From an uncultured Selenomonadales bacterium (GTDB lineage Bacteria; Bacillota; Negativicutes; Acidaminococcales; Acidaminococcaceae): a DNA stretch of 64,000 nt. Both the position numbers and the translations under genes were made by a program. The notes below the pieces were generated by a model. It searched no databases. It saw only the letters and a list, made by a program, of their open reading frames with translations, and had not been told where the DNA came from. The stretch's first letter is position 1. Each line of letters opens with the position of its first letter. Positions 13,823-19,986 of the stretch are shown piece after piece. The stretch covers positions 62,001 to 126,000 of the forward strand of contig OMWZ01000001.1 in NCBI GenBank assembly GCA_900314855.1, in the 5' to 3' direction.

Positions 13823-13835
13823 ATGGGCAAGTCTT

Positions 13836-13997
13836 TTGATAGAGGCGCGGCGTTCAAGAGTATCCTGCGGAGAGGCATCGGTGAGGCAGGCGAAAGGGGA
13901 CGCTGCCGAAGGGACCGGACCGGCGGGTTCTGTCTACTGGGCCTGCCGTGAACAATGACAGGACTGTCGCTGCCGCGCGGCAGCGGAGAGCTATCTC
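13836..13997 (+). promoter_or_regulatory. lysine riboswitch (L box)
   Basis: The transcribed leader of dapB has the conserved L-box core: AGAGGCGC and CAAGAGTA near 13841-13862, the AAAGGGGACGCTGCCGAAG block at 13893-13911, and GGAGAGCTATC at 13985-13995. P1 is closed by GATAG (13838-13842) pairing with CTATC (13991-13995). Lysine binding should stabilise P1. The 3' side AGAGCTATC (13987-13995) can instead pair, with one mismatch, with GATAACTCT (14024-14032) in the terminator loop, which gives a plausible antiterminator. High lysine is therefore expected to stop transcription before dapB. Confidence 0.93.
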
Positions 13998-14014
13998 AAA
14001 CTGCGGATATTTTG

Positions 14015-17253: not shown

Positions 17254-18147
17254 ATGAAAAAGCCTTATTTCGGAAGATTGCTGACCGCTATGGTAACGCC
17301 CTTTGACGAAAGCGGTGTCAATGTGGAGGCGGTCAAAAAATTGGTGGACTGGTGGCTGGCCCATGGGACGGACGGCCTCGTGGTGACCGGCTCGACGGGG
17401 GAAGCGGCGACCATGTCCGTAGAGGAGAAAAAGCTCCTCTGGACGACAGTGGTGCAGTATGTGAACGGCCGCGTACCGGTCATCGCCGGGACAGGCAGCA
17501 ACAGCACGGCCGGTTCCATAGAAATGACAAAGCTCGCTGAATCCTGCGGCGTGGACGGCGTCCTGATTGTGGGCCCGTACTACAATAAACCGACGCAGGA
17601 AGGGTATTATCGCCATTTCAAGGCCATTGCGGACAGCACGTCCTGCAAGGTCATCCTGTACAATGTCCCGGGTCGGACGGCGGCCAATGTGGCTCCGGCA
17701 ACGGTCGCCCGCACGGCGGCAGCCTGCCCCAATGTGGTGGCCATCAAAGAAGCGGCCGGCCGGGTCGATCAGGTGGCGGAACTGTACCGTCTGCTGCCGG
17801 AAGACTTTACCATTTACAGCGGCGATGATGGCCTCATCCTGCCGTTCCTGTCCGTCGGCGCGTCAGGCCTGATTTCTGTCCTGAGCAACGTGGACGGCGA
17901 AATCCTCCAAAATCTGATGCAGGCCTATGAAGAAGGCCGCGTCAAGGAGGCGGCGGATCTGAACAAAAAGATGGTTCCCCTGGCGGAGGCCATGTTCGTC
18001 GAAACCAATCCGATTCCGGTCAAGAAGGCCGTGTCCCTCGTGACAGGCATCGATTGCGGCGATCCGCGCCTGCCGCTGACGCCGCTCAGCGAAGGGGCGC
18101 TGGCCAAAATGACGGCGGTCCTGCGCGAAAATGGCCTCTTGCCCTGA
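17254..18147 (+). CDS. dapA: 4-hydroxy-tetrahydrodipicolinate synthase
   Basis: It condenses pyruvate with aspartate semialdehyde, the committed step towards lysine and peptidoglycan DAP. The 297-residue TIM barrel has VTGSTGEAATMS near residues 44-55, the catalytic tyrosine in VILYNVPGRTAAN (Tyr about 134) and the Schiff-base lysine in VVAIKEAAGR (about 162). An AAAGGAGAG site precedes the ATG. It is the last gene of the riboswitch-controlled operon, followed by a weak terminator-like hairpin. Later pathway genes such as lysA are not in the window. Confidence 0.97.
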   Translation: MKKPYFGRLLTAMVTPFDESGVNVEAVKKLVDWWLAHGTDGLVVTGSTGEAATMSVEEKKLLWTTVVQYVNGRVPVIAGTGSNSTAGSIEMTKLAESCGVDGVLIVGPYYNKPTQEGYYRHFKAIADSTSCKVILYNVPGRTAANVAPATVARTAAACPNVVAIKEAAGRVDQVAELYRLLPEDFTIYSGDDGLILPFLSVGASGLISVLSNVDGEILQNLMQAYEEGRVKEAADLNKKMVPLAEAMFVETNPIPVKKAVSLVTGIDCGDPRLPLTPLSEGALAKMTAVLRENGLLP

Positions 18148-18183
18148 GCAGGCCTACCATGGCGCCGCCGGAGGCTGCTTTTT
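18148..18183 (+). terminator. possible terminator of the dapB-asd-dapG-dapA operon
   Basis: GCAGGCCT pairs with AGGCTGC with one bulged G, the loop is GC-rich, and five T follow. The hairpin begins at the dapA stop codon. The stem is imperfect. Confidence 0.45.
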
Positions 18184-18237
18184 CGGCCCTGCAGGTTGGC
18201 TTGTGCCGCGGCGGCAGGAGAAATATCCGAAAAGAGT

Positions 18238-18266
18238 TTGCAATTTAGCGTAAAATAGCTTATAAT
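18238..18266 (+). promoter_or_regulatory. sigma-A promoter driving a short untranslated transcript
   Basis: TTGCAA, a 17-base spacer and a perfect TATAAT predict a start near 18273. No credible start codon with a ribosome site follows before a terminator about 110 bases downstream. Confidence 0.8.
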
Positions 18267-18272
18267 TTTGCT

Positions 18273-18383
18273 ACACACTGAGACTGACATCTGCCTGTCC
18301 TGTTTTGGGAGAACTCGGGACGGGCAGGTGCCCGTGTCAGATTTAAGCGTATTCTGTACCTTCGGGTTGGGATACGTTTTTTT
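18273..18383 (+). ncRNA. candidate structured small RNA or terminated leader, family not recognised
   Basis: This predicted transcript of about 110 bases runs from a good promoter to a terminator-like hairpin (18349-18383). Its 5' half can form CTGCCTGTCC (18291-18300) with GGACGGGCAG (18318-18327), closed further out by CTGACA / TGTCAG (18284-18289 and 18335-18340). A competing hairpin, GGGC-AGGT-GCCC with flanking GAC/GTC, uses part of the same 3' arm. I could not match it to 6S RNA, SRP RNA, tmRNA, a T box or a known riboswitch. A second promoter for pepA follows, so it may be an independent RNA rather than a pepA leader. Confidence 0.45.
18349..18383 (+). terminator. terminator of the candidate small RNA
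   Basis: GTATTCTGTACC and GGTTGGGATAC pair across a TTCG tetraloop with some G-T pairs, and seven T follow. It lies about 75 bases past the predicted start of the small transcript. Confidence 0.7.
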
Positions 18384-18396
18384 ATTTCCCAGGCCG

Positions 18397-18405
18397 TGTT
18401 ATAAT
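18397..18405 (+). promoter_or_regulatory. extended -10 promoter of pepA
   Basis: TGTTATAAT is a perfect extended -10 element, 14 bases after the preceding T run and about 85 bases before pepA. The -35 region is only T-rich. Confidence 0.6.
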
Positions 18406-18489
18406 GGGCCAGGAGGTGTCCCCGCGGGAGGGGGCCGCGCTCCGGACAAGTCGGTCCGCGAGAGAGGAAAATGGGAAAGGATGGACAAG

Positions 18490-19986
18490 ATGGAAGAATT
18501 TATTTCGTTAGGCAGTGTCGCCCCCAAGGCGTCCCTGTATGAGGGAGCGGAAGCCGTTGCCCTGCTGCTGTGCCGGGAATGCGTGCCCGAACTGGCCGGG
18601 ACAGGCCTGCCCAAGGATCTGCAGGCTGCCGTGTTGTACGCCGTCGACAAGGATGTCACGGTCACGGACAAGGGGAAAGTGACGGAACTTGTCCTGCCGC
18701 GGGGGGACCGCTTTGTGCGTCTCGTCCTCGCCGGCGCCGGCAAGGGCCGGGAATGCACGCCCACAAATCTGCGCCGGGCCGCGGGCAATGCCGTGCGGGT
18801 CCTCGTCCGGCACGGCGTGACCAACGCGATCGTGGCCGGCCCGGTCCTGCTGCACCCGGCGCGGAACCATTATCTGAAGGCGGTGGTAGAAGGGCTGCTG
18901 CTGGGCAGCTACCGCTTTGACAAGTATAAATCGGACAAAAAAACGCCGAACCCGTTGTCCATCAGTATAGTCAACGGGGTGGATGGCGCGCTGGGAGCAC
19001 TTTCGCAGGGAATGATCACGGCGTATGCTATCGGCCATGCGAGGGATCTCGCCAACGAACCGGGCAACGTGATCAATCCGGAAGTCCTGGCGGAAGAAGC
19101 GGAAGAGGTGGCGGAAAAGTACGGCCTGGACGTCGAAGTGCTGACGGAACGGGAGATGGCCCAAAAGGGCATGAATGCCATCTTGGCCGTCGGGGCCGGC
19201 AGTATCCATCCGCCCCGCCTGGTGACGCTGACGTACCGCGGGGCCGGCGACGCGCCGTTCCTGGCGTTTGTCGGCAAGGGGATCACGTTCGACAGCGGCG
19301 GCATTTCCCTGAAACCGGGGGTCGGCATGGGGGAAATGAAGGACGACATGAGCGGCGCGGCCGCTGTCCTTGGTGCCATGCAGGCCATTGCTTCCCTGCA
19401 GATGAAGGTCAACGTCCTGGGCATCCTGGCCTGCGCGGAAAACATGCCGTCCGGTTCGGCCCAGCGCCCCGGGGACATTGTGACGGCAGCCAATGGCAAG
19501 ACCATCGAGGTGGTGAATACCGACGCGGAAGGCCGTATGGTTTTGGCCGATGCGGTCTGGTACGCCGGGGAGAAGGGCGCCACGGAAGTCGTGGATATCG
19601 CTACCCTGACGGGAGCTGTCATTATCGCCCTGGGCGAAGATATTTCGGGAATTGTGGCCAACGATGACAATCTGGCCATGGCGGTCAAACTGGCAGGACA
19701 CCGGGCCGGCGAGGAATGGTGGCAGCTGCCCCTCCTGGAAAATGCCGACGAACTCCTGGCCAGTTCCTGCGCCGACTATAAGAACAGCGCCGGACGTCCG
19801 GCCGGAACGATTACGGGCGGCGCCTTTATTGGGCACTTCGTGAAGCCGGGGCTGCCCTGGGCCCATCTGGATATCGGCGGCACGTCGACGGCCAAGAAGA
19901 CCCACGGCCACCTGGTGGAAGGCTGTACGGCCTTCGGGACGGCGACCCTTATCGAATACGCAAAGAGCCGGCAGGTGCTGCCATGA
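18490..19986 (+). CDS. pepA: leucyl aminopeptidase, M17 family
   Basis: A cytosolic two-metal aminopeptidase that trims N-terminal residues from peptides. The 498-residue protein has the M17 N-terminal macro-like domain and the C-terminal catalytic domain. Metal and active-site signatures are VGKGITFDSGGISLKPG, the KDDMSGAAAVLG block and NTDAEGRMVLADA (about residues 341-353). The chosen ATG at 18490 has AAAGGA 8 bases upstream. An in-frame ATG at 18481 is possible but sits directly against the ribosome site. Much longer upstream extensions overlap the small RNA. The stop overlaps the next start as ATGA, so the PHP gene is translationally coupled. Confidence 0.95.
   Translation: MEEFISLGSVAPKASLYEGAEAVALLLCRECVPELAGTGLPKDLQAAVLYAVDKDVTVTDKGKVTELVLPRGDRFVRLVLAGAGKGRECTPTNLRRAAGNAVRVLVRHGVTNAIVAGPVLLHPARNHYLKAVVEGLLLGSYRFDKYKSDKKTPNPLSISIVNGVDGALGALSQGMITAYAIGHARDLANEPGNVINPEVLAEEAEEVAEKYGLDVEVLTEREMAQKGMNAILAVGAGSIHPPRLVTLTYRGAGDAPFLAFVGKGITFDSGGISLKPGVGMGEMKDDMSGAAAVLGAMQAIASLQMKVNVLGILACAENMPSGSAQRPGDIVTAANGKTIEVVNTDAEGRMVLADAVWYAGEKGATEVVDIATLTGAVIIALGEDISGIVANDDNLAMAVKLAGHRAGEEWWQLPLLENADELLASSCADYKNSAGRPAGTITGGAFIGHFVKPGLPWAHLDIGGTSTAKKTHGHLVEGCTAFGTATLIEYAKSRQVLP

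Follow-up and report, generated by a model that had tools for sequence, protein, structure and literature searches.

Introduction

In Lactococcus lactis, the small RNA (sRNA) ArgX is encoded after argR, has the arc mRNA as its target and responds to arginine (PMC6586332). DapZ, an sRNA of Salmonella, lies at the 3' end of a gene of the lysine/diaminopimelate pathway and has its own conserved promoter (PMC9438474). The element described here is a predicted RNA encoded directly after dapA in a stretch of 64,000 nucleotides, called the window below, of contig OMWZ01000001.1 (positions 62,001 to 126,000) from an uncultured Selenomonadales bacterium. The window genome was compared with 13 other Succiniclasticum genomes (14 in all). 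Judging from these sequences, the element is probably a gene for a small non-coding RNA that is transcribed independently and seems to be confined to Succiniclasticum.

By analogy, the RNA appears to resemble known sRNAs that are encoded right after metabolic or regulatory genes and have promoters of their own. Its gene arrangement is like that of ArgX (PMC6586332) in that an sRNA gene with its own promoter directly follows a protein-coding gene; there the neighbour is argR and the target is established, whereas here the neighbour is dapA. It is like that of DapZ (PMC9438474) in the position on the 3' side of a lysine/diaminopimelate-pathway gene and in the conserved promoter, but here the gene is dapA and the promoter lies past the stop codon. 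Hfq-dependent intergenic sRNAs also combine their own promoter, one structured body and a terminator with U7 to U9 in genomes encoding Hfq; the present RNA differs from them in its G-rich loop, and its Hfq contact and seed pairing are presumed.

Promoter and transcription unit

A sequence-only reading of the region had pointed to a promoter TTGCAA-17-TATAAT. This promoter, P1, is present (TTGCAA at 18238-18243, a 17-nt spacer, TATAAT at 18261-18266; 10 of 12 consensus matches), and was the sole site, in two registers, in a promoter scan of a 2.5-kb stretch. Since 1.0 such site is expected per shuffled 2.5 kb, the match alone is no better than chance, and its weight comes from the relatives. 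The TTTGCA-18-TATAAT spacing and the 11 nt from the -10 element to the first hairpin are identical in all 12 intact loci. In the same loci, anything from 8 to 160 nt separates the dapA stop codon from the -35 element. This fixed promoter geometry at a variable distance from dapA points to a self-contained transcription unit and not to a simple 3' untranslated region (UTR).

The terminator-like hairpin proposed earlier was recovered as an intrinsic terminator at the 3' end of the RNA. Its stems are predicted from sequence at -14 to -18.6 kcal/mol across the relatives, each with T7 to T9. A simple terminator scan did not list this stem, presumably since it is interrupted. The absence of a reading frame also held for the roughly 111 bases concerned: no ATG frame within the RNA is conserved across the relatives, and the single shared TTG frame has lost its start in one congener (G002) and has only 13 codons in the window. 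A coding peptide was ruled out on this ground. At the level of sequence, the locus thus combines what is expected of an independent intergenic sRNA gene: a putative promoter, a predicted terminator, no conserved frame, and conserved sequence and structure.

An elaborate transcription terminator, or 3' UTR, of the dapA operon would explain part of these data. In most relatives the terminator of the RNA is the sole clear terminator-like site from dapA to the next gene, and in other genera a simple terminator often follows dapA. This explanation accords poorly, however, with a conserved P1 at fixed spacing directly upstream of the RNA, and with a first hairpin that is separate from the terminator, carries a near-invariant loop and is conserved beyond the dapA coding sequence. 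We regard it as very improbable.

Conservation within Succiniclasticum

With blastn, the window genome and 12 of the 13 congeners were found to carry the locus at 76-82% identity; in the thirteenth, G007, only a 3' portion is left, where a contig ends. All 13 congeners therefore keep at least part of the RNA, and it is intact in 11. Conservation of the RNA exceeds that of dapA in all 66 genome pairs (mean identity 0.91 vs 0.80) and that of the four-fold degenerate dapA sites in all 45 computable pairs, some of which offer only about 20 such sites. Mean identity over the 60 bases upstream of the RNA is 0.72.

In G007 (L045) and G008 (L043, L044) contigs break off within the RNA or right at it. 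Metagenome assembly was probably confused here by the near-identical RNA common to the species, or by the strong hairpin.

Predicted fold and covariation

The minimum free energy of the RNA is -51.1 kcal/mol, against -30.3 +/- 3.3 kcal/mol for shuffled sequences (z -6.3; none of 200 shuffles as good). Shuffles do not prove function and the P1 match is not above chance, so the comparison across relatives decides. The consensus fold consists of hairpin 1, a short A/U-rich linker and the terminator. In hairpin 1, the basal CUGA/UCAG pairing and an internal loop are followed by the main helix CAUCUGCC.../...GGCAGGUG, an upper helix and the apical loop UUUUGGGAGAACU. The features are listed in Table 1.

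In the nine different sequences compared, standard pairs fill 99.4% of the pair cells and two double changes occur, a result reached by 4 of 500 shuffles; slid versions of the fold are 31-46% paired. When two further pairs, which are 2x2 mismatches in most species, are added, three double changes are obtained (2 of 500 shuffles). The 10-bp helix of the sequence-only reading is thereby backed by compensatory changes, and the check proposed with it, conservation and covariation in relatives, shows the unit kept across the genus. The support from covariation is real but modest, because most pairs never vary. The loop and the surrounding top of the helix are nearly invariant, paired positions included, and helix positions lower down covary.

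Table 1. Features of the dapA-pepA region in the window
Feature	Position	Strand	Remarks
dapA	17254..18147	+	Directly 5' of the RNA in all congeners that have the two on a single contig
P1, predicted sRNA promoter	18237..18266	+	-35 TTTGCA/TTGCAA, -10 TATAAT
Predicted sRNA, about 111 nt	18273..18383	+	Start placed 7 nt past the -10 element, end at the T-run; fold z score, covariance model match, alignment
Hairpin 1	18278..18340	+	CUGA/UCAG base, internal loop, main helix, apical loop
Apical loop UUUUGGGAGAACU, 13 nt	18303..18315	+	A single substitution in 13 sequences; may serve as seed or protein site
Intrinsic terminator, stem-loop and T7	18345..18383 (about)	+	-14 kcal/mol
P2 -10 element TATAAT of the next gene	18400..18405	+	In relatives paired with TTGAAT in the terminator 3' arm
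pepA (leucyl aminopeptidase)	18481..19986	+	Next gene in the window, second next in relatives

Downstream genes and the question of a leader

In the relatives, dapA and the RNA are followed by a gene whose secreted product of about 450 aa gives weak NlpC/P60-type matches, and then by pepA. In the window the NlpC/P60-like gene is missing between the RNA and pepA (18147-18480) and the RNA is retained. With the G010 protein as query, no copy of this gene came up elsewhere in the window genome, an empty result obtained without a positive control. A lysine riboswitch, a known element (98.8 bits), lies at window positions 13832-14001 upstream of the asd-lysC-dapA cluster, which ends at the RNA.

A promoter, a structured RNA and a terminator upstream of a gene on the same strand are also the layout of a cis-acting leader, either riboswitch or attenuator, with hairpin 1 as the aptamer and the terminator serving the gene downstream as expression platform; that the relatives apparently share one secreted NlpC/P60-like protein as their next gene would agree with it. 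Several observations run against such a leader. The relatives' downstream gene is missing in the window while the RNA is kept, and a separate -10 element serves the next gene past the terminator (11 of 11 loci reaching that far), which makes a riboswitch unlikely. In G320, a genome of another Negativicutes family, the gene has moved together with P2, accompanied by no more of the RNA than its 3' half. An antiterminator search found at most 6 nt complementary to the 5' arm of the terminator and a match to the U tract that is G-U-rich only, none of it plausible. The competing hairpin described earlier can form, but it is 8.9 to 13.4 kcal/mol less stable than the main fold in every sequence, and its 6-7 bp in the window, G009 and G004 shrink to 3-4 bp in the remaining relatives. 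A two-state switch was rejected, since this hairpin is not conserved and no plausible antiterminator was found, and we hold a cis-acting leader in general to be unlikely.

The sequence-only reading had assigned pepA a separate promoter, and this stands in part. The -10 element is conserved, and in the relatives a -35 element TTGAAT lies within the terminator 3' arm, 17 or 18 nt before it; in the window (18377-18405), however, the -35 is poor (TTTTTT at 17 nt) and ten extra bases spoil the spacing. Of the two suggestions made for the element, a small regulatory RNA or an unknown riboswitch, the sequence data favour a small RNA, for which a regulatory role is presumed, over the riboswitch.

Distribution outside the genus

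The covariance model of the RNA matched window positions 18274-18383 with 101.6 bits, the window being one of the model's own sequences. Among 59 genomes of the family 14 matched, all of them Succiniclasticum, and no intact copy was found in other genera among 380 genomes of the class (102 genera). The class-wide search gave two further matches only, in G226 and G320. The resemblance in G226 is limited to the terminator, and this genome was rejected as a source of a homologue. The G320 match (64.8 bits) was ruled out as an independent RNA, being the 3' half of a Succiniclasticum copy: a 1.8-kb piece (L118:2899-4719; G320:C15) on a 260-kb contig is 98.3% identical to the G002 locus, starts within hairpin 1, spans P2 and the NlpC/P60-like gene, and ends in the start of pepA. 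By its sequence, this piece came by recent horizontal transfer or arose as an assembly chimera and does not represent a second RNA. With an effective sequence number of 0.87 the model is narrow, and large covariance searches use stricter filters, so that a strongly diverged homologue could be missed.

The exact pattern of the loop core, searched in 84,980 species genomes, was found on contigs labelled Succiniclasticum, Acidaminococcaceae bacterium or Selenomonadales bacterium, and its carriers include the cultured Succiniclasticum ruminis DSM 9236, which has the locus on contig NZ_FONL01000002.1. A Spirochaetia contig with the 19-base loop pattern was taken as a chance occurrence, only the pattern itself fitting the covariance model. 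Phage records and viral contigs gave no match to the RNA, and dapA loci of other genera have a simple terminator or another gene after dapA and no such RNA. That the RNA matched no known family agrees with a scan of Rfam, which gave no match at gathering or permissive thresholds. The restriction to the genus, as judged by sequence searches, holds among the genomes covered.

Proposed mode of action

In the proposed mechanism, a sigma-70-type P1 would give a primary transcript of about 111 nt with ends close to those in Table 1. The transcript would form the long hairpin presenting the 13-nt loop, followed by the A/U-rich linker and the terminator with a tail of 7-9 U, and transcription would end at the U tract; the terminator probably stops read-through from dapA as well. 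The RNA would most likely act in trans, its exposed loop pairing with mRNAs; base pairing of this kind is perhaps its mode of action, with a chance that we put at about even. Hfq, which is encoded in 14 of 14 genomes with scores above the cut-off, might bind at the A/U linker and the U tail.

Several points weigh against this interpretation. The hairpin 5' arm is missing in G003, with a TTTG microhomology at the junction (L014); this loss may be an assembly artefact, as contigs also break here in G007 and G008. Covariation is modest: the alignment has only nine different sequences, with two or three compensatory changes between them. Sites complementary to the loop that occur genus-wide are mostly in or antisense to coding sequence, and no pairing at neighbouring translation starts was found to be conserved across the genus. 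No convincing target was found among near-exact complements of the loop and the neighbouring genes, and no genome-wide prediction was made. The usual sRNA seed in Firmicutes is C-rich and blocks the Shine-Dalgarno sequence; the loop here is G-rich, which a protein partner fits as well.

The RNA might accordingly be a decoy or scaffold that binds a protein through its loop instead of pairing with mRNAs. The near-invariance of the loop and helix top, extending to paired positions, would suit a protein site, as would the failure to find conserved mRNA complementarity for the loop or at neighbouring starts. CsrA, the best-known partner of GGA loops, was found in 0 of 14 genomes, however, which speaks against a decoy of the CsrB/RsmY type. 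Like 6S RNA (RF00013), it is a stand-alone structured RNA; 6S RNA is longer (187 model positions), did not match at the RNA locus, and is encoded elsewhere in 13 of the 14 genomes, and the RNA is therefore not simply the missing 6S. Protein binding in place of mRNA pairing is, in our estimate, rather unlikely, and an sRNA gene with its own promoter, perhaps acting by base pairing, is retained as the preferred interpretation.

Significance

Among the Firmicutes, the Negativicutes form a class whose cells have an outer membrane. No report of a small regulatory RNA in Succiniclasticum or in other Negativicutes is evident in open-access titles and abstracts. A bolder idea, to which we give little credence, is that of a lineage-specific RNA using a novel protein partner or sensing mechanism, with UUUUGGGAGAACU as the recognition element and a link to the lysine/diaminopimelate cluster of these succinate-fermenting rumen bacteria. 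As a candidate small RNA gene, the locus occurs across the whole of one genus. It did not turn up in the sister genera, with which that genus partly shares the gene junction. A cultured carrier (S. ruminis DSM 9236), a covariance model and a loop predicted to be active make the locus a well-defined point of departure.
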